Source: Sulfurovum sp. (lineage in GTDB: Bacteria; Campylobacterota; Campylobacteria; Campylobacterales; Sulfurovaceae). From it: a DNA stretch of 60,740 bases. Below are positions 662 through 49,005 of the stretch, in pieces (position 1 is the stretch's first letter; each line of letters opens with the position of its first letter). The stretch covers positions 1 to 60,740 of the forward strand of contig JAUUDF010000016.1 in assembly GCA_030826885.1 (NCBI GenBank). Reading direction: 5' to 3'. The notes beneath the pieces are model-generated. The model was not told the DNA's origin. It made no database searches and saw nothing but the letters and a program-made list of their open reading frames with translations. The position numbers and the translations under genes are program-made.

Positions 662-2515
662 GTGTTGAAATATTATCAAATAACACTTCTACGCTCTAGT
701 GCCCCCGTGCTTACTTACCATTGTAATGACACATTACAATGTGGCGATGTTGTGGAGGTACCGCTTAAATCTGCCAGGAAAGAGGCAGTTGTACTTCAGG
801 AAGTTTCCAAACCTGCATTCAAAACTGAAGCGGTCAGTAGAAGTTTTGGAAAGTACTATACGCCTGTACAAACGGAAATAGCCAAATTCATTGCCGAGTA
901 CTACTTCTCCTCCTTTTCCGAAGCCATCTCACTGTTTTTGCCCTACGGGACAAAAAGTGTTCAGCGTTCAGAGTTTAGCGTTAAGGAGGATGCAGTGAGG
1001 CGGCCTGTGTTGAATGAGGCGCAGCAACAGGCTTATGAAGCACTTCTTTCCAAAGAAAAAGCATTGTTATTCGGAGTTACAGGTGCAGGAAAAACGGAAA
1101 TATTCATTGCCATGATGGCAAAGATGCTCGAAGAGGGAAAAACCTCCATCTTCCTGATGCCGGAAATTTCTCTTACGCCGCAAATGGAAAAACGGCTGAA
1201 GGTCTATTTTGGCGACAGTGTGGCGATGTGGCATTCGAAAATTACCAAGAAGAAGAAAGAAGAGATTCTTGAGGGTATTGAAGCGGGGCGCATACGCATT
1301 GTCGCCGGGGCGCGTTCGGCACTCTTTGTACCGCTGCGTGATCTTGGGCTGATCATCGTCGATGAGGAGCATGATGACAGCTACAAAGCACAGACCAGAC
1401 CCCGTTACCATGCACGCGATGTGGCAGTGCTGATGGGGAAGAAGATGAACGCGAAGGTCGTACTTGCCTCGGCTACCCCCAGTACGACCAGCTACCACAA
1501 ATACGATATTGTAAGGGTTTCCGAGCCTTATGTAAAAAGGGCAAAGAGGTATCGTTTCGTGCAGGGAGACAGCATCAATGCTCCCATCATCTATGCGCTT
1601 AGAGAACATTATGAAGAGGGTGGGCAGTCGCTGCTCTTTTTGCCCACACGGGGTAACTTCAAATACCTCTACTGCCAAAAGTGCGGAAAAACGCATACCT
1701 GTCCGTTTTGTTCGGTAGGGATGGCGCTGCACCGCAGGCACCGCCACCTCAAATGCCACTACTGTAACTACACCGAAGCCATCCGTGAGAGTTGTGCGCA
1801 CTGCGGTCATACACCCCTAAGCAGTGAGCGTATCGGTACGCAGGAAGCAATGGAGCTCATAGCGGAGAGCATCGAGGGTATTCGCATCGAACAGTTCGAC
1901 AAGGACAGCATTACCACTGCCAACAAACTGGTTAAGGCGCTTAAGCGTTTTGAGAGTGGAGAGAGCAACCTGCTGCTAGGTACTCAGATGCTCAGCAAAG
2001 GGCATGACTACCCCAACATTACACTTGCCGTCATCATGGGACTTGACCACATCATGGGGATGGCGGACTACCGCTCCCGTGAACGCGCCATGAGCCTGCT
2101 TTTTCAGATTGCTGGACGAAGCGGACGCGCCAAAGAAGCAGAAGTGCTCATTCAAACGGCAGACCCGGCGCAGTTTGAGCCCTATTTGGGAGACTATGAG
2201 TCGTTTCTCAAAGACGAGCTGCTTTTTTTGGAGATTGCCCAGTACCCTCCGTTTGTTTCGTTGGCACGTCTCCTCATTGCCCATAAAGATGAATCCAAAG
2301 CCTCCAAAATCACCATGGATACTGTCGGCAAACTCAAAGCGTTCGATGATGTGGAGATTGTCGGACACGGCAAGGCACCCATCGAACGCATTGCCAACAA
2401 ATGGCGTTTTCAGATACTGCTGCGTGCCAAGAGTAGAGTACCCCTGCTCAAAGCCCTGCATACAGTGGACCGTCGTGAAATAGAGATCGATATGGATCCA
2501 GTCGAATTTTCTTGA
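662..2515 (+). CDS. priA: Primosomal protein N' (replication restart helicase PriA)
   Basis: PriA binds stalled forks and reloads DnaB for replication restart. Visible signatures are the Walker A motif GVTGAGKTE near residues 138-146, the DEEH box (DEEHDDSYK) near 234, and a cysteine-rich zinc-binding insert between about residues 336 and 383 with C-x2-C pairs. At 617 residues it is shorter than the E. coli protein (732), as I expect for this phylum. The start is GTG at 662; a TTG directly follows. Its stop is only a few bases before a repeat-bounded element, and dnaB, its functional partner, is encoded 1.8 kb downstream. Identification is firm. Confidence 0.95.
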   Translation: MLKYYQITLLRSSAPVLTYHCNDTLQCGDVVEVPLKSARKEAVVLQEVSKPAFKTEAVSRSFGKYYTPVQTEIAKFIAEYYFSSFSEAISLFLPYGTKSVQRSEFSVKEDAVRRPVLNEAQQQAYEALLSKEKALLFGVTGAGKTEIFIAMMAKMLEEGKTSIFLMPEISLTPQMEKRLKVYFGDSVAMWHSKITKKKKEEILEGIEAGRIRIVAGARSALFVPLRDLGLIIVDEEHDDSYKAQTRPRYHARDVAVLMGKKMNAKVVLASATPSTTSYHKYDIVRVSEPYVKRAKRYRFVQGDSINAPIIYALREHYEEGGQSLLFLPTRGNFKYLYCQKCGKTHTCPFCSVGMALHRRHRHLKCHYCNYTEAIRESCAHCGHTPLSSERIGTQEAMELIAESIEGIRIEQFDKDSITTANKLVKALKRFESGESNLLLGTQMLSKGHDYPNITLAVIMGLDHIMGMADYRSRERAMSLLFQIAGRSGRAKEAEVLIQTADPAQFEPYLGDYESFLKDELLFLEIAQYPPFVSLARLLIAHKDESKASKITMDTVGKLKAFDDVEIVGHGKAPIERIANKWRFQILLRAKSRVPLLKALHTVDRREIEIDMDPVEFS

Positions 2516-2521
2516 AAATTC

Positions 2522-3037
2522 GAAGTGAAAAATTAAGAGTGAAAAATTAAGAGTGAAGAATGAAGAGTTGTGGTATGCTTTTCTTACGAAAATCGATGAT
2601 TAAAATGGATTTAGAATGAGTGTATTGGAACATAAAAGTTATGATTTTTCTATACGAATCATTAAGTGTAGTGAATATTTACAACGGGATAAAAAAGAGT
2701 TTATTTTAAGCAAACAGCTTATACGTTCGGGTACAGCAATTGGTGCATTAGTAGCTGAGGGTAAATATGCGCAATCAAAATCTGATTTTATCAATAAACT
2801 TTCCATCTCACTGAAAGAAGCAAACGAGACAAAATATTGGTTGCATTTGTTGTACGATTGTAGTTATCTTCAGGAAAAATTGGCTATAAGTTTACTAAAT
2901 GATGTAGAAAGTTTAATCAAAATTTTGGCATCGAGTATTAAGACTGCAAAAGAGAACAATCATGACAAATAAAATAAAAGTTTTGCAAAGCAAAACAAAC
3001 CGACACTCTTCACTCTTCACTCTTCACTCTTCACTTA
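2522..3037 (+). mobile_element. IVS-like element bounded by inverted heptamer repeats
   Basis: This 516-bp segment lies between priA and ispG. Its left end is built of 7-nt units (GAGTGAA, AAATTAA, GAGTGAA, GAATGAA). Its right end carries four tandem CACTCTT units followed by CACTTAT, so the two ends are inverted copies of a GAGTGAA-type heptamer. A perfect 7-bp hairpin with an AAA loop sits just inside the right end (2980-2996). The cargo is a single four-helix-bundle gene at 2616-2972. The layout recalls intervening sequences of bacterial 23S rRNA genes, which often encode the same protein family. Mobility is inferred from the repeats and from the related element at 4114-4274. Confidence 0.6.
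2616..2972 (+). CDS. Four-helix bundle protein (S23/IVP, TIGR02436 type)
   Basis: A 118-residue, mostly helical, charged protein. It shows the family hallmarks: an early YDFSIRIIK segment, a central SKQLIRSGTAIGALVAEG segment, and a later helix with KEANETKYWLHLL. Members occur inside 23S rRNA intervening sequences and, in variant form, as accessory proteins of diversity-generating retroelements, where the pentameric bundle binds nucleic acid. No reverse transcriptase or variable repeat is visible here, so the retroelement role is not supported. The gene is AT-richer than its neighbours and is the only cargo of the heptamer-bounded element, suggesting it travels with it. Its cellular function is unknown. 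Confidence 0.85.
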   Translation: MSVLEHKSYDFSIRIIKCSEYLQRDKKEFILSKQLIRSGTAIGALVAEGKYAQSKSDFINKLSISLKEANETKYWLHLLYDCSYLQEKLAISLLNDVESLIKILASSIKTAKENNHDK

Positions 3038-3053
3038 TTTCAATGGATGTTCA

Positions 3054-4115
3054 ATGAAAGAGAGATTCCCCACCAAAAAAATCTACGTCGGAGATGTCCC
3101 TGTCGGCGGTGATGCACCGATCTCTGTACAGTCGATGACCTATAGTGACACACATAATGTCGCGGAGACTGTCGAGCAGATCAACCGTCTGCATTTCGCC
3201 GGCGCCGATATGGTGCGTGTGGCGGTACCGGAGATGGAGGATGCGCTCGCACTAAAGGCGATCAAAGAGCAGATCTCCCTGCCGTTGATCGCCGATATTC
3301 ACTTCAACTACAAGCTCGCACTGGAGGCTGCGAAGTGGGTCGACTGTATCCGTTTCAATCCGGGAAACATCGGAGAGAAGAACCGTATCAAAGAGATCGT
3401 CAAGGCATGCCAGGAGCGTAACCTGCCGATTCGCGTAGGTGTTAATGCAGGAAGTCTTGAGAAGGAGTTTGAGGACCGTTACGGCGCGACGGCAGAGGGG
3501 ATGGTCGCCTCTGCGGAGTACAATATCAAGTTTCTCGAAGACCTTGGCTTTACCGATATCAAAGTCTCACTCAAAGCGAGTGATGTGGACAGAACGGTAG
3601 AGGCGTATCGTATGCTGCGTCCGAAAAACGACTATCCGTTTCATCTGGGGGTGACCGAAGCGGGTACGATCTTTCATGCGACCGTGAAATCTGCGATCGG
3701 ACTGGGTGCACTGCTGCTTGACGGCATTGGAGATACGATGCGTGTCTCGATCACCGGAGAGCTCGAAGAGGAGATCAAAGTAGCCAAAGCGATCCTCAAA
3801 GACAGCGGCCGCGTACAGGAGGGACTCAATATCATCTCCTGTCCTACCTGCGGGCGTATCGAAGCTGATCTGGTCAGCGCCGTTGCTGAGGTGGAAAAGC
3901 GCACGGCACACATCAAAACTCCGATGGATGTCTCAGTCATGGGCTGTGTGGTCAATGCCATCGGTGAAGCCAAGCATGCCGATGTCGCCATCGCCTACGG
4001 CAAAGGGGCAGGACTGATCATGGTCAAAGGCGAAGTGGTCGCACGACTGCCAGAGGGTGAACTGGTAGAGCGCTTCGTGCAGGAAGTGGAGAAGTTTGCA
4101 GAAGATAACGCTTAG
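3054..4115 (+). CDS. ispG: 4-hydroxy-3-methylbut-2-enyl diphosphate synthase
   Basis: IspG (GcpE) catalyses the reductive ring opening of methylerythritol cyclodiphosphate in the non-mevalonate isoprenoid pathway, using one [4Fe-4S] cluster. The ligand pattern is visible: SCPTC near residues 262-266, then C-x6-E near 298-305 (CVVNAIGE). The N-terminal [10 protein letters not shown] segment is typical. Length (353 residues) fits the compact two-domain bacterial form. The ATG at 3054 follows the right end of the first repeat element by about 16 bases and has only a weak ribosome site; the stop TAG overlaps the left edge of the second element. dxs, from the same pathway, is at 52.8 kb. Confidence 0.95.
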
Positions 4116-4274
4116 TGAAGAACTAAGAGTGAAGAATGAAGAGTTGTGGTATGCTTTTCTTTAAAAGAAAAGCTATGAATGACGAGGGGAAAATGAAAAA
4201 ATATGATATGAAAAAAGCATTGCACAGCAATGTAAACCAACACTCTTCACTCTTCACTTTTCACTTTTCACTTT
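4114..4274 (+). repeat. Short deletion derivative of the heptamer-bounded element
   Basis: Of its 161 bp, positions 4124-4161 are identical over 38 nt to 2548-2585 of the larger element. The right end again carries CACTCTT units, here partly changed to CACTTTT. No protein gene remains inside. It keeps two hairpins: a 9-bp perfect stem with a TAA loop at 4153-4173, and a 6-bp stem with an ACA loop at 4218-4232, placed like the hairpin at the right end of the larger element but with different stem bases. It begins within the ispG stop codon and ends just before the dnaB start hairpin. It looks like a MITE-style non-autonomous copy. Confidence 0.6.
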
Positions 4275-4299
4275 GTCCATCAAAGGTATTTTGATGGAC
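4275..4299 (+). promoter_or_regulatory. Hairpin over the dnaB translation start
   Basis: GTCCATCAAA at 4275-4284 is perfectly complementary to TTTGATGGAC at 4290-4299, leaving a 5-nt loop. The right arm contains the dnaB ATG (4294) and the left arm overlaps the AAAGG ribosome site (4282-4286). If it forms in mRNA it would mask initiation. A regulatory role is inferred from position only. Confidence 0.45.
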
Positions 4300-5748
4300 A
4301 ACATGTACAACCTCAACATCGAGCGTGCCGTACTTTCTGTGATAATCTTCGATCCGGAGACCTATGAAGAGATTGCATCCAAGCTAAACGCACAGGATTT
4401 CTATCTGCCGTTTCACCAGTATGTCTTTATGGCAATGGAGGAGCTTAGCCGGGAAGAGAAGCCTATTGACGAGGAGTTTTTACGGTCCAAACTGCAGGGA
4501 ATGGGCAAGTTCGATGAAGTGGCGATGCTGGAGATGCTTTCTGCCAACCCCATCTCCAACACGCAAGCGTATATTGCCGAAATAAAAGCCAAGTCTGCCA
4601 AGCGTGCACTCGCCACGCTGGCGACGGAAATCAAGAAGGTAACCATTGAAGATGATCTTCCCGCTGAGGATGTGATGAACCTGGTGGAGAAGAAGCTCTA
4701 CGAGATCACGCAGAACAATACCAATGAGGATTTCAGGGAATCAAAAGAGATTACCATTTCGATGATGGAGGAGATCAACCGGCTCAAAGCGCTTGGAAAC
4801 TCCAAGCTTATCGGTACAGACACAGGCTTCAAGAACCTCAATGAAAGAACTTCCGGGTTTGGAAAAGGAGATCTGGTCATTGTTGCCGCACGTCCTGCAA
4901 TGGGAAAGACGGCTTTGGTGCTCAATATGGCGCTCAAAGCCATAGAGAGAGGTGAAGGGGTGGCCTTTTTCTCCTTGGAAATGCCCGCGGAGCAGTTGAT
5001 GCTCAGAATGCTGGCTGCCAAGACCTCCATCCCGCTGCAGCAGCTGCGTGTGGGGGACCTTACCGATGAGCAGTGGGGGCAGCTCTCTTCCGCAACCGAT
5101 GATCTGGCACACAAAAAGCTCTTTGTTGATGATGGCGGATATGCAACGATCCACCACGTTCGCAGTAAGCTGCGCAAGCTCAAGACTCAGCATCCCGAGA
5201 TCAGTATGGCGATCATCGACTACCTGCAGCTGATGAGCGGTGAGGGGCGTGAGGGCAGACAGCAGGAGATTTCGGAGATCAGCCGGGGGCTCAAGCAGCT
5301 TGCCAGAGAGTTGCAGATACCCATTTTGGCACTCTCGCAGCTCAACCGTAGTCTCGAGAGCCGTGACAACAAGCGCCCGATGCTCTCCGACCTAAGGGAA
5401 TCCGGGGCGATTGAACAGGATGCCGATATTATTCTCTTTGTCTATCGTGGGGTAGTCTACAAGATAAACGAGATGAAAGAGAAGCTTGAAAAAGCCAAAA
5501 CTGACGGCAATGCGGACAAGGTCAGTGAGTACCAGAAGAAGTATGACGAACTGCTGCGCAACAATGAAGAGGAGACAGAGCTGATTATAGGCAAGCAGCG
5601 TAACGGACCTACAGGAACGGTTGATCTTGTCTTTCAGAAACGCTTTACCCGTTTTATTGATGCTGTCCACTCACCGGCATTTGAAGTGGTGTATGAAGAT
5701 GGGGATATCCCTGCCAACACAGGCAACATTGAGCTTCCGCCAATTTAG
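4294..5748 (+). CDS. dnaB: Replicative DNA helicase
   Basis: DnaB is the hexameric fork helicase. The N-terminal domain (IERAVLSVIIF onwards) and the RecA-like motor are both present: Walker A ARPAMGKTAL near residues 198-207, Walker B with IIDYLQLM near 306, and the C-terminal DLRESGAIEQDADII motif. There is no intein. I start at ATG 4294, which has AAAGG seven bases upstream; an in-frame TTG at 4273 lies in the repeat end and ATG 4303 is a second option. A 25-nt hairpin covers this start. comEC begins 12 nt after the stop and is probably co-transcribed. Confidence 0.96.
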   Translation: MDNMYNLNIERAVLSVIIFDPETYEEIASKLNAQDFYLPFHQYVFMAMEELSREEKPIDEEFLRSKLQGMGKFDEVAMLEMLSANPISNTQAYIAEIKAKSAKRALATLATEIKKVTIEDDLPAEDVMNLVEKKLYEITQNNTNEDFRESKEITISMMEEINRLKALGNSKLIGTDTGFKNLNERTSGFGKGDLVIVAARPAMGKTALVLNMALKAIERGEGVAFFSLEMPAEQLMLRMLAAKTSIPLQQLRVGDLTDEQWGQLSSATDDLAHKKLFVDDGGYATIHHVRSKLRKLKTQHPEISMAIIDYLQLMSGEGREGRQQEISEISRGLKQLARELQIPILALSQLNRSLESRDNKRPMLSDLRESGAIEQDADIILFVYRGVVYKINEMKEKLEKAKTDGNADKVSEYQKKYDELLRNNEEETELIIGKQRNGPTGTVDLVFQKRFTRFIDAVHSPAFEVVYEDGDIPANTGNIELPPI

Positions 5749-31829: not shown

Positions 31830-31964
31830 AAAAGCGTTTAGCGTTTAGCGTTTAGTGTTCAGAGGTTTTCTCATTTTCACATTGCTTCATGCTTATGACG
31901 CATTCATATTATTGTCATTTGTTAAAATCTTTAACGCTTAGCGCTTAGCGCTGAACGCTTGGCT
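31830..31964 (-). repeat. Heptamer-bounded inverted-repeat element (second sequence type)
   Basis: About 135 bp between argF and hemN. One end has units GCGTTTA, GCGTTTA, GCGTTTA, GTGTTCA (31834-31861); the other has TTAACGC, TTAGCGC, TTAGCGC, TGAACGC (31931-31958), the inverted counterpart. The design is the same as in the elements at 2.5 and 4.1 kb, but the heptamer sequence differs (GCGTTTA against GAGTGAA). The inner 65 bp carry no gene. It ends about 3 nt from the argF stop codon. Confidence 0.6.
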
Positions 31965-35435: not shown

Positions 35436-35474
35436 AATAGGTGCCTTTGAGAAATATGGAATTTATTTTACACT

Positions 35475-35509
35475 AATTATGAATTGTTAATTATTAATTG
35501 CTAATTGTT
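35475..35509. repeat. Heptamer tandem array in hemB-ribA gap
   Basis: Five consecutive 7-nt units, each beginning AATT: AATTATG, AATTGTT, AATTATT, AATTGCT, AATTGTT. The 7-nt period matches that of the element ends at 2.5, 4.1 and 31.8 kb, but no inverted partner is present nearby. It sits immediately upstream of the ribA -10 box and could also tune that promoter. Confidence 0.5.
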
Positions 35510-45431: not shown

Positions 45432-46565
45432 ATGGAAGAGAAACTTAAACTGTATCTGCGTACAATGATAAGTAACAACGGAAGTGACCTTCACCTCAAA
45501 TCGGGTTCGCATGTACGTACCAGAATATACGGGACCCTTAAAATTGTGGGGAAAGAGATACTGAGTGCCGAAGATATGGATCAGCTTGCCAGAGAGATCA
45601 CCACAGAAGAGCAGTATGACAAACTTCAGTCGGACAGAAACCTTGACTTTTCCTATGCAATAGGCAGCGATCACCGGTTCAGGGTCAACTTTTTCTATCA
45701 GATGGACGGTTTGAGTGCGGTTTTCCGAATTATTCCCGTAGAAATACTGAGTATTGAACAGTTGGGACTTCCCGAAGTAGTCAATGATTTTGCCAATATT
45801 CAGCGTGGACTGGTACTGGTGACAGGTGTTACCGGATCAGGTAAGTCTACGACGCTTGCAGCCATTCTCGACAAAATAAACCGGGAACAGAAAAAACATA
45901 TTATTACCGTAGAGGACCCGATAGAGTTCGTACACAAGGATCGGGGCTGTCTGATCAACCAACGAAGTATCGGCCAGGATGCACACTCTTTCTCCGATGC
46001 CCTTCGCGCGGCACTGAGGGAAGACCCCGACATTATCCTCGTTGGGGAGATGCGTGACCTTGAAACCATTGATATCGCGATGCACGCAGCCAATACAGGA
46101 CACCTTGTCTTCTCGACACTTCACACACTCGATGCCAAGGAGACGATTGACAGGATCGTGGGGATGTTCCCAAATGACGAGCAGAACCGTATTAGGATGT
46201 CACTCGCATCGGTACTTGAGGGGGTGCTCTCCCAGCGGCTTATTCCGACAGTCAAAGGCGGACGGGTCGCTGCGATTGAGATATTGAAAAAGACAGCACG
46301 TATTGAGCAGCTTATCGCCGAAAACCGTGACAGCGAGATTCTTGATGCCCTCTTTGAAGGAAAAGAGATTTATGGTACCCAAACCTTTGACCAGGCACTG
46401 TTGGACATTTTCAGACGGGGAGACATAGACGAAAAAACAGCGCTTGAATACGCCACCAACCCGGCAGATATGAAACTGAAGATGGAGGGTGTCGGCAAAG
46501 GCGCAATTGTTGATGAAGAGATGCTTGAAAAAGAAATAGAAGTCTTCGATTTTAAGGATGAGTAG
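45432..46565 (+). CDS. pilT: Type IV pilus retraction ATPase
   Basis: 377 residues. An N-terminal PAS-like domain (DLHLKSGSHVRTRIYG) precedes the secretion ATPase core: Walker A TGVTGSGKST near residue 131, Asp box EDPIEFVH, Walker B LVGEMRDLETI, and the PilT-typical AANTGHLVFSTLHT His box. The retraction motor drives twitching and DNA uptake, linking it to the prepilin (0.1 kb) and comEC (5.8 kb). The TAG is part of a strong hairpin. No other pil genes are adjacent. Confidence 0.93.
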   Translation: MEEKLKLYLRTMISNNGSDLHLKSGSHVRTRIYGTLKIVGKEILSAEDMDQLAREITTEEQYDKLQSDRNLDFSYAIGSDHRFRVNFFYQMDGLSAVFRIIPVEILSIEQLGLPEVVNDFANIQRGLVLVTGVTGSGKSTTLAAILDKINREQKKHIITVEDPIEFVHKDRGCLINQRSIGQDAHSFSDALRAALREDPDIILVGEMRDLETIDIAMHAANTGHLVFSTLHTLDAKETIDRIVGMFPNDEQNRIRMSLASVLEGVLSQRLIPTVKGGRVAAIEILKKTARIEQLIAENRDSEILDALFEGKEIYGTQTFDQALLDIFRRGDIDEKTALEYATNPADMKLKMEGVGKGAIVDEEMLEKEIEVFDFKDE

Positions 46566-46602
46566 CGTAAAGAAATCGTGAACTGCTTCACGATTTTAGC
46601 TA
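46562..46602 (+). terminator. Hairpin terminator candidate after pilT
   Basis: An inner stem AATCGTGAA / TTCACGATT (46574-46582 with 46587-46595) closes a CTGC loop, followed by TT. Outer bases GTAGC and GCTAC (46562-46566, 46598-46602) also pair, embracing the pilT stop codon. Confidence 0.5.
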
Positions 46603-46690
46603 CGAAACCGAAGCGGTGAAGCAAAGCGACCCGCGAAGGCAAAGCGTAAAGAAACCATCATCTGCATACCAAAATTCAGCTACGAAACTT
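46562..46690. repeat. Imperfect direct repeat in the pilT-rplY gap
   Basis: Two copies of a roughly 46-nt unit begin GCGTAAAGAAA and end AGCTACGAAAC (46565-46607 and 46645-46690), with divergent middles. They are separated by a purine-rich stretch with AAGCGGTGAAGC. The first copy forms the hairpin described separately; the second does not. The rest of the gap before rplY holds TATAATCC near 46718, a likely promoter. Confidence 0.5.
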
Positions 46691-46751
46691 CAACTCTTTT
46701 TAAAATTGTTTCGATATAATCCCTCTCTATTTTTAATTTAAGGAAACAATA

Positions 46752-47288
46752 ATGTTAGAAGGTATCGTTAGAGAGAGTATCGGAAAGACGACTGCAAAGA
46801 AGCTTAGAAGAGATGGTTATCTAACTGCAAACCTTTACGCAAAAGGCGTAGAGAACATTCAGGCGGCATTTAAACGCGGTGAGTTTGTTAGAGCAGTAAG
46901 AGCAAAAGAAAATCTTGCATTCCCGGTAAAAGTGGGAGACAAAGAACTGAATGTTGTCATCCAGGAGTATCAACTGCACCCGGTACACGGTGAAGTCGTA
47001 CATGTGGATCTTAGAATCGCCGTACCCGGTCAGGTTACAGACTACCTTGTCCCTGTTGTCACACACGGAACGCCGGTAGGACTGAAAAACAAAGGTGTTC
47101 TTGTTATTTCCAAAAGAAGGGTCAAAGTGAGAGGTGCCATTGAAAATATACCTGCAAAGTTCGACCTGAATGTCGAACCGCTTAACAGAGATGACTCTAT
47201 TCTTGTAAGAGATGTGGAAGTACCTGAAGGGTGTCGTATGATGGACAGACCTGATGTTGCTATCTGTGGTGTGATCAAGTCTAAATAA
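46752..47288 (+). CDS. rplY: 50S ribosomal protein L25/general stress protein Ctc
   Basis: 178 residues, the long (TL5/CTC) form with a C-terminal beta domain beyond the 5S rRNA-binding part. VRESIGKTTAKKLRRDGYLTANLYAKG opens the L25 domain and VHVDLRIAVPG the linker. It binds 5S rRNA in the large subunit. AAGGAAAC precedes the ATG. pth follows after 18 nt, the common rplY-pth pairing. Confidence 0.94.
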   Translation: MLEGIVRESIGKTTAKKLRRDGYLTANLYAKGVENIQAAFKRGEFVRAVRAKENLAFPVKVGDKELNVVIQEYQLHPVHGEVVHVDLRIAVPGQVTDYLVPVVTHGTPVGLKNKGVLVISKRRVKVRGAIENIPAKFDLNVEPLNRDDSILVRDVEVPEGCRMMDRPDVAICGVIKSK

Positions 47289-47306
47289 CTTCATGAAAGC
47301 ATTGTC

Positions 47307-47876
47307 GTGACACTCTTTGCAGGTCTGGGGAATCCGGGATCACAGTATGAAGAGACACGTCACAACATAGGGTTCAAAGTCATTGACGCGATAGTCAGTG
47401 ACTTTAATGCCAGAAATATCTCCAAAACTGCATTTTACGGTGAACTCTACCGTACAGCCAATACCCTTTTTTTAAAACCGACCACGTTTATGAACCTGTC
47501 GGGTAAAAGTCTGCTTCCGGTAAAGCAGTTTTTCAAAATCGATCTTGAAGACATTGTTGTAATTCATGACGATATAGACCTGCCGTTTGGTGCGGTGCGT
47601 TTTAAAAGAGGGGGAGGACATGGAGGCCATAACGGGCTTAAATCCATAGATGCAACGATCGGTAAAGAGTATTTGCGCATTCGTATAGGTGTCGGAAAAC
47701 CCGAACGTAAATCACAGGTAGCAGATTATGTACTTCACCCATTCAGCGATGAGGAAAGGGTATTGCTCGACAAGCTCATTGCGCATGTAGTCGATGCTGC
47801 CAAAGCACTATTGCACCATGAAATCGATGAGGTTAAATCCCGTTACAGCCTGAAATCAATTGAGGGACTGCTGTGA
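47307..47876 (+). CDS. pth: Peptidyl-tRNA hydrolase
   Basis: 189 residues. Active-site residues are Asn9 and His19 (GLGNPGSQYEETRHN) and the Asp of VIHDDIDLPFG; the GGGHGGHNGLKSI loop is also present. It recycles peptidyl-tRNA released from stalled ribosomes. The GTG at 47307 overlaps the TGA of a five-codon frame (ATG at 47293), perhaps giving translational coupling. The TGA overlaps the lptG ATG. Confidence 0.95.
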   Translation: MTLFAGLGNPGSQYEETRHNIGFKVIDAIVSDFNARNISKTAFYGELYRTANTLFLKPTTFMNLSGKSLLPVKQFFKIDLEDIVVIHDDIDLPFGAVRFKRGGGHGGHNGLKSIDATIGKEYLRIRIGVGKPERKSQVADYVLHPFSDEERVLLDKLIAHVVDAAKALLHHEIDEVKSRYSLKSIEGLL

Positions 47877-48961
47877 TGAGTCTTATTACCCCTCCACGCT
47901 ATTTTCGCTATCTTGCACTGCTGTATCTGAAAAACCTTCTATGGATCCTCTTTGGACTCTCGTTCGCCTTTGCTGCCATTGATTATTTCCAGCATATTCA
48001 GGAATTGCAGGTTTCATGGAACTACAAGATACTCTATATCTTCTACATGTGGGAAGAGGCGCTTGGGATGCTCTACCCGCTGGCGATCATTTTTGCACTG
48101 ATAATGACAAAGCTCTCTCTAGTCAGGCAGAACACGATGGGGATACTCCATGCCTTCGGCTATACCAAAAAGCGACTTGTCGTACCGATGTTTCTTGTTG
48201 CACTGTTTGCCTATCTGGTCTTTCTGGGGCTGAATACAACGGAATTCGCCTACGCAAAAGACAAGGCAAAGTCACTATTGAAAAACGAGATCGGTGCCTA
48301 TAATGTCAATGATATCTTTTTTAAGTATAACGATACGTTTGTCTATATGAAAAAACTCGATCCTGTACGTAAAAAACTGGAAAACGTGACCATCTTCAAA
48401 GTTAAAGACAACAAAGTGCTCTATACGATTCACGCACCCTATGCACTGTTTGACGGTCTGCAGTGGGATGCACACAACGCCACAGTGAAAACACACCGAT
48501 ATAACCGGTATGACAACCTCGTACGGTACGATGTGGAACACAAAGATCGTATCAGTACGCTCAAGGGCTATAAACCGAAGATCATCGAATCACTCTATGA
48601 GGGTAAAAGCCTCAATATTCTCGATGCCTATCATACCTGGCAGCTGTTAAAAAGCCAGCATCTCAATTCGGACAAAATACGTTCGGCATTTTATGAAAAA
48701 ACGGTCGTACCGCTGTTTGCACTCGCGATGCTTCTAATTCTGTTTTTCAAACTTCCGTTTCATGCGAGAATGATGAAAATGGGGTTTGTGGTAGCCCTGG
48801 CACTGGGTACGACATTTGTGATTTGGGGCATACTTTTTGGACTGAACCAGATCGGATCGAACGGTGTGGTCATGCCTGAATTGACTGCGGTGCTGCCGGT
48901 CTCTCTGCTCTGGTTTTATGCCATCTATCTCTATTTGACAGACGAACGGAGTATCGGCTAA
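47876..48961 (+). CDS. lptG: LptF/LptG-family lipopolysaccharide export permease
   Basis: 361 residues with three membrane helices at each end and a periplasmic beta-jellyroll in the middle (about 110-265), the YjgP/YjgQ layout. GILHAFGYTKKRLVVP is the cytoplasmic coupling-helix region, and FYEKTVVPLFALAMLLILFFKLPF opens the second membrane half. It would pull LPS from the inner membrane with LptB. LptF and LptG are hard to separate by eye. ATG 47876 overlaps the pth stop. A rho-independent terminator follows. Confidence 0.85.
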   Translation: MSLITPPRYFRYLALLYLKNLLWILFGLSFAFAAIDYFQHIQELQVSWNYKILYIFYMWEEALGMLYPLAIIFALIMTKLSLVRQNTMGILHAFGYTKKRLVVPMFLVALFAYLVFLGLNTTEFAYAKDKAKSLLKNEIGAYNVNDIFFKYNDTFVYMKKLDPVRKKLENVTIFKVKDNKVLYTIHAPYALFDGLQWDAHNATVKTHRYNRYDNLVRYDVEHKDRISTLKGYKPKIIESLYEGKSLNILDAYHTWQLLKSQHLNSDKIRSAFYEKTVVPLFALAMLLILFFKLPFHARMMKMGFVVALALGTTFVIWGILFGLNQIGSNGVVMPELTAVLPVSLLWFYAIYLYLTDERSIG

Positions 48962-48985
48962 TTCATCCTTTCCTCTCCCTTTTAT

Positions 48986-49005
48986 GGGGGGAAATCCCCC
49001 TTTTA
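48986..49005 (+). terminator. Rho-independent terminator after lptG
   Basis: GGGGG at 48986-48990 and CCCCC at 48996-49000 form a stem around GAAAT, followed by TTTTA. This closes the rplY-pth-lptG unit before lysA. Confidence 0.7.

Follow-up and report, generated by a model that had tools for sequence, protein, structure and literature searches.

A four-helix-bundle gene within inverted heptamer arrays between priA and ispG of Sulfurovum: a probable transposase-free insertion element related to 23S rRNA intervening sequences

Tandem heptamer repeats have been reported from bacteria for decades, and we know of no mechanism that accounts for them. Genes of the four-helix-bundle family PF05635 (FHB genes) are widespread and, to our knowledge, have no known function beyond the story of the intervening sequences (IVSs) of 23S rRNA, whose stem is cut by RNase III. 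The family is presumably homologous with Avd, the accessory protein of DGRs. The Coxiella IVS carries GACAGAT heptamers ahead of its S23 ORF (PMC4990558), and FHB genes have been described in cas loci (PMC3936711) and in CPR rRNA insertions (PMC11270868), locations that fit their being parts of insertion elements. Among the heptamer repeats, TAACTGA (PMC4679880) has a proposed translational role (MacGregor 2015), and GGGAATC of Xanthomonas, mostly in four units and often in inverted pairs, was left unexplained (Rehm 2015; PMC4692102). In the open-access literature, we found no paper that connects heptamer arrays with FHB genes in operons of protein genes.

The window analysed here is a stretch of 60,740 nucleotides from a Sulfurovum genome of 1.65 Mb (G000). 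Its priA-ispG gap holds a PF05635 gene enclosed by inverted GAGTGAA-type heptamer arrays, the full feature with its junctions spanning approximately 2502-3057. The left array (2524-2565, plus strand) consists of six units, AGTGAAA, AATTAAG, AGTGAAA, AATTAAG, AGTGAAG and AATGAAG, and the right array (3009-3036, minus strand), inverted relative to the left one, of four, (TTCACTC)3 and TTCACTT; the TRF scores of the two arrays were 76 (period 14) and 64 (period 7). A preliminary description had proposed tandem GAGTGAA heptamers in opposite orientation at both ends, enclosing a single gene, between two protein genes. The opposed arrays are indeed present, except that the left one alternates AGTGAAA and AATTAAG. 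The FHB gene (2616-2972, plus strand) is the only sizeable ORF between them, and the flanking genes encode proteins as described. Its 118-aa product matched PF05635 (E 8.6e-26) and TIGR02436 (E 4.4e-29) and is a relative of PDB 2RLD and 2GSC. Inside each array lies a box with an inner 7-bp hairpin: on the left, AGTTGTGGTAT followed by GCTTTTC ttac GAAAATC (2566-2594, plus strand; hairpin 2577-2594) and, on the right, a box with GTTTTGC aaa GCAAAAC (2980-3008, minus strand; hairpin 2980-2996). A leader ORF (2962-3057, plus strand) starts within the 3' end of the FHB gene, crosses the right arm and terminates on the start codon of ispG (ATGA). Outside the left array, a junction hairpin (2502-2523; TCGAATTTTC tt GAAAATTCGA) includes the priA stop codon (2513-2515); its far arm is the 3' end of priA and its near arm an inverted copy thereof, and no such hairpin was found in relatives with an empty priA-ispG site. 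At the right junction (3037-3057), an imperfect inverted repeat spans the start of ispG.

Three features of 23S rRNA IVSs, such as that of Coxiella (PMC4990558), were compared with the window element. A homologous ORF (S23p/IVP, PF05635) and complementary ends able to form a stem with the ORF in its loop are present, whereas the location is not in rRNA but between protein genes of an operon; the element further differs in having an ORF-less family and leader ORFs for translational coupling. With the cyanobacterial STRR, TAACTGA (PMC4679880) and GGGAATC (PMC4692102) repeats, FHB elements share arrays that are tandem, of 7 nt, intergenic, often of about four units and often in inverted pairs; however, the reports on those repeats tie them to no gene or mobile element, while in the present material such arrays terminate FHB elements or their ORF-less kin. 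REP/BIME sequences with RAYT and MITEs are likewise dispersed short non-coding hairpin units, solo or in facing pairs, but the FHB units end in tandem heptamers and have no matching transposase. The element contains no transposase, and no target duplication was evident by eye at the junctions read. As for DGRs, whose Avd we take to belong to the same protein family, the difference is that no reverse transcriptase was found in G000 (no PF00078 match). The window feature is probably a full-length copy of a class of selfish insertion elements with FHB as sole gene and inverted heptamer arrays as ends. Most likely, the element is transposase-free, selfish and kin to 23S rRNA IVSs, with the FHB protein as a trans factor.

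A half-unit was defined from 20 loci around other arrays in G000. It comprises the array, a box AGTTTTGGTAT, a 7-bp hairpin with a 3-4 nt loop, and TTTTATT. In a manual alignment of 20 half-units, with N placed in short loops, 94.3% of cells were paired and 29 double changes were counted (0/500 shuffles); the pairing of the hairpin covaries. A covariance model, R1, matched both ends of the window element (2551-2601, E 1.1e-13; 2973-3022, E 2.6e-15), retrieved about 38 half-units in G000 and from 0 to about 98 per species in congeners, and found few outside the genus. Half-units stand alone, in facing pairs with 40-80 nt between them, or around an FHB gene. A second element, ORF-less and with the same ends, lies 1.1 kb away between ispG and dnaB (4113-4302, plus strand). 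It is made of half-units at 4127-4180 (plus) and 4210-4259 (minus), a junction hairpin over the dnaB start (4274-4301) and a leader ORF (4193-4294) that ends TGATG on dnaB. This neighbour, the approximately 38 half-units and the empty sites of congeners indicate more than chance.

The solo half-units L038 and L047 lie within coding genes resembling anmK and a permease, apparently in frame as judged by eye, so that the repeat would be translated. At 31831-31962 of the window, a short element without an FHB gene has inverted AGCGTTT / AACGCT heptamers that match those of the second FHB gene of G000 (L001), and a GAGTGAA-class element occupies the orthologous place in G009. A single AATTGTT/AATTATT-like array (35473-35509) stands directly ahead of a gene start. 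At L247 (contig C22 of G009, ~46000-49000), half-units differ in heptamer between their two ends (GGATTGA versus GAGTGAA), which looks like the replacement of one array.

The orthologous priA-ispG gaps were then compared. An FHB element is present in G000, G001, G002, G016 and G018 and as a decayed copy in G007, and there is none in G003, G005, G006, G008, G009, G010 and G019. Relatives thus differ, and the comparison does not refute insertion as opposed to vertical descent of the same sequence in all of them. FHB is moreover discordant with its neighbour: G000 and G016 share 95% in ispG and 61% in FHB, against 92% and 80% for G000 and G001, and FHB therefore likely arrived at this site at least twice. 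The ispG-dnaB site is occupied in G000, G002, G009, G012, G014, G016 and G020, while G001, G003, G005, G007, G008, G010 and G019 have an empty site at which stop and start codons overlap (AAATAATGGAAAACATG or a variant). Many more polymorphic sites were found in syntenic stretches of six genomes. The earlier view of a transposase-free insertion with FHB as its only gene, belonging to a poorly described mobile system, is supported; that view did not take in the genome-wide family with its ORF-less derivatives, the occurrence of the same layout across phyla or the element-specific heptamers. Other inverted-repeat insertions, of the GTAGGGTGCGT...ACGCACC type and similar, were seen in the priA-ispG gaps of G009, G010, G014 and G022 (L217, L218, L224 and L230). 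The FHB genes of two Richelia genomes are 85% identical at the DNA level; each has TTGACAG-type arrays, and the flanks of the two do not match.

Within the order, FHB genes are flanked by inverted heptamers whose sequence varies by element and agrees between both ends. For a wider view, 80 FHB loci were collected from public genomes, many of them metagenome-assembled (Bacteroidota, Gammaproteobacteria, Cyanobacteria, Clostridia, Acidobacteria and others). These loci are of FHB subfamily A, the all-family alignment being too diverse for a collection scan, and the evidence for subfamily B comes from the order-level, plasmid and six-genome samples. Period-7 arrays were found upstream at 52 loci, downstream at 50 and on both sides at 38, and no other period from 4 to 12 was found more than once. 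Control ORFs of the same loci, a small set that includes overlapping starts and is not independent, gave 0/97 upstream, 9/97 downstream and 0/97 on both sides. The best 21-nt stretch of one flank matched the reverse complement of the other at 18.8/21 on average, while mismatched pairs and the direct orientation each gave 15.3. The arrays flanking FHB genes are therefore inverted and element-specific in many phyla. The FHB gene was co-oriented with its upstream neighbour in 67/78 cases (67:11) and with its downstream neighbour in 65/77 (65:12). A location in rRNA was rejected for these elements, as it applied to 0/80 loci. Plasmid copies in Nostoc, Anabaena, Planktothrix, Euhalothece and Treponema carry arrays, several of them perfect. 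One such element lies between cas2 and cas1 (L267, Anabaena cylindrica) and another between drmD and pglX (L268, Planktothrix); a Nostoc plasmid has more than 25 downstream units versus about 4 upstream (L264), and a Euhalothece plasmid about 12 versus about 4 (L263). It should be noted that the arrays of two loci (L088, L089) are built from a 6-nt unit, GTGATA, and that several Flavobacterium copies show no clear arrays. Carriage by phages was rejected, the only phage contigs with FHB genes being two unannotated faecal ones (L269, L270), both free of heptamer arrays.

The heptamer sequence appears to be related to the FHB gene that it flanks. Across 97 elements, more divergent FHB proteins went with more divergent heptamers (Mantel r 0.39, 0/2000), host phylogeny and composition being uncontrolled in this comparison. 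The two FHB subfamilies of G000 have different heptamers (AGTGAAG and AGCGTTA), and FHB paralogues within one genome are divergent, not recent copies. Between the sister species G002 and G009, both arms of an FHB element at the same site have shifted together, from AATTAAA to AATTAGG, and at the ppk site the array differs while the inner hairpin is kept. A prediction was fixed before its test, namely that, should FHB proteins have cognate heptamers, a genome with GGGAATC arrays of the kind reported by Rehm (2015) would have a GGGAATC-flanked FHB gene. Arrays of three GGGAATC units were sought in 369 gammaproteobacterial genomes and found in one, G432, which appears to be xanthomonad-like, and there the prediction held: the sole PF05635 gene, which matches the family incompletely (E 3e-21) and lies between genes reading as accB and accC, is flanked by the inverted GGGAATC arrays GGGAATCGGCAATGGGGAATCGGGAATC and GATTCCCTACTCCCCATTCCCGATTCCC. 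ORF-less inverted GGGAATC pairs occur in G432 as well.

Some of these properties suit a rival reading in which the structures are not actively mobile but are long-standing operon spacers, regulatory or structural, that selection retains and whose heptamers grow by slippage. FHB is under purifying selection (dN/dS ~0.1; dN 0.13 and dS 1.4 for G000-G001, dS being near saturation), leader ORFs and start-codon hairpins would couple translation, heptamers turn over in place between sister species, and a translational role has been suggested for TAACTGA repeats (MacGregor 2015). We nevertheless consider such spacers unlikely, given clean empty sites, one with an overlapping stop/start, copy numbers between 0 and about 98 in congeners, solo units within coding genes, discordance of FHB with the neighbouring gene, and plasmid copies, one of them between cas2 and cas1.

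With respect to insertion, the preliminary description had left three routes open: RNA, a trans-acting enzyme, or the FHB protein itself. Among 25 genomes of the genus, the number of half-units correlated with that of FHB genes (rho 0.84, p 1.5e-7), a correlation that is partly expected if FHB copies simply represent complete elements. FHB was present in 10/10 unit-rich genomes and 3/15 others. By contrast, half-units did not track the count of Y1 transposases (rho 0.15; genomes partly incomplete) or of reverse transcriptases (rho 0.12) in the genus, and either enzyme in trans was rejected on this lack of correlation; FHB is the only gene shared by the unit-rich genomes among those tested (FHB, Y1 and reverse transcriptase). 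The enzymes are thus unlikely routes within the genus, and a role of FHB is favoured. If a Y1 enzyme that recognises hairpins (IS200/IS605 or RAYT) mobilised non-autonomous elements in trans, as it does REP sequences, and FHB were a passenger, this would account for the subterminal hairpins with a conserved adjoining box, the solo half-units and the facing pairs, which resemble REP/BIME, and G000 does have one Y1 gene. However, Y1 counts are untied to units: no Y1 match was obtained in G020 (44 units) or G021 (10 units), where the gene is possibly missed as the genomes are incomplete, while G012 has 9 Y1 genes but 6 units. Such movement, which would leave the period-7 arrays around FHB genes of other phyla unexplained, seems somewhat less likely still than immobile spacers. 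The least probable account is that a reverse transcriptase acting in trans moves the elements through RNA, with FHB in a part like that of its presumed homologue Avd. The sense-orientation bias and the adjacency of FHB and reverse transcriptase genes in G021, G038 and G046 would favour it, but selection can also give an orientation bias and PF00078 had no match in seven unit-rich genomes (G000, G002, G014, G016, G018, G020 and G024).

Returning to a transposase-free element with FHB as trans factor, it is fairly likely that the protein recognises cognate heptamers and that both its own element and the ORF-less copies depend on it for spread or maintenance. More speculatively, and with rather low probability, movement could proceed through host replication and repair enzymes, by template switching or fold-back priming, the element encoding neither a transposase nor a reverse transcriptase; the inverted duplicates of host sequence seen at the junctions would be the footprint of that step. 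Points against this reading are the divergence of FHB paralogues within a genome, the FHB copies that lack clear arrays, the 6-nt units and the differing heptamer ends in G009. We tentatively propose, at somewhat less than even odds, that FHB elements are a mobile class of their own, in which FHB and host replication/repair enzymes spread and homogenise cognate arrays, the IVSs, the cyanobacterial heptamer repeats and the xanthomonad GGGAATC repeats being products. The GACAGAT heptamers ahead of the Coxiella S23 ORF suggest that 23S rRNA IVSs may be those members of a wider FHB class that sit in rRNA. If this link holds, PF05635 genes and heptamer repeats form one element class with protein-repeat pairing, several long-unexplained heptamer repeats share one likely origin, a concrete candidate emerges for the origin of 23S rRNA IVSs, and the FHB genes of cas, DISARM/BREX-like and essential operons can be taken for insertions and not for parts of those systems. 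FHB elements also raise the question of how DNA spreads without a transposase or reverse transcriptase.

Action at the RNA level would fit the co-orientation of FHB with its operon, the folding of the arms into a stem and the leader ORF that ends on the next start codon. Folding of the window element paired its left and right arrays (z -4.29). On transcription of the operon, a long stem would likely form between the arrays and enclose FHB in its loop, an arrangement known from 23S rRNA IVSs. Ribosomes that have translated FHB would likely reach the next gene by way of the leader, and it is presumably because translation passes through that the insertions are tolerated and survive in essential operons. 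The leader ORF ends at the ispG start codon (ATGA) in G000, G001, G002, G016 and G020, and at dnaB it ends TGATG in G000, G002, G009 and G014, which recreates the native ispG-dnaB overlap. As ribosomes travelling along FHB and the leader would open the stem, its cutting may be conditional and processing by RNase III possibly rare.

In six Sulfurovum genomes, a perfect stem of 8 bp or more lay within 45 nt outside the array at 30/80 unit ends compared to 1/475 controls, and 25 of these 30 stems ended no more than 3 nt from the array. Where the host sequence could be named (the end of priA and the starts of dnaB and ppk), it forms the far arm; the near arm is an inverted copy of it and follows host coding changes between species. 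Pre-existing terminators were rejected as the source of the hairpin at ispG-dnaB, since empty sites are without them. We tentatively read the junction hairpins as products of fold-back or template-switch synthesis, the alternative being selection for an mRNA hairpin. They were rejected as a universal part of the elements, as they occur at 9/128 ends of the 80-locus set, mostly in Campylobacterota, and are lineage-dependent. Two of the five G432 loci, both ORF-less pairs, have a perfect junction hairpin, again formed by an apparent host-gene end and its inverted copy.
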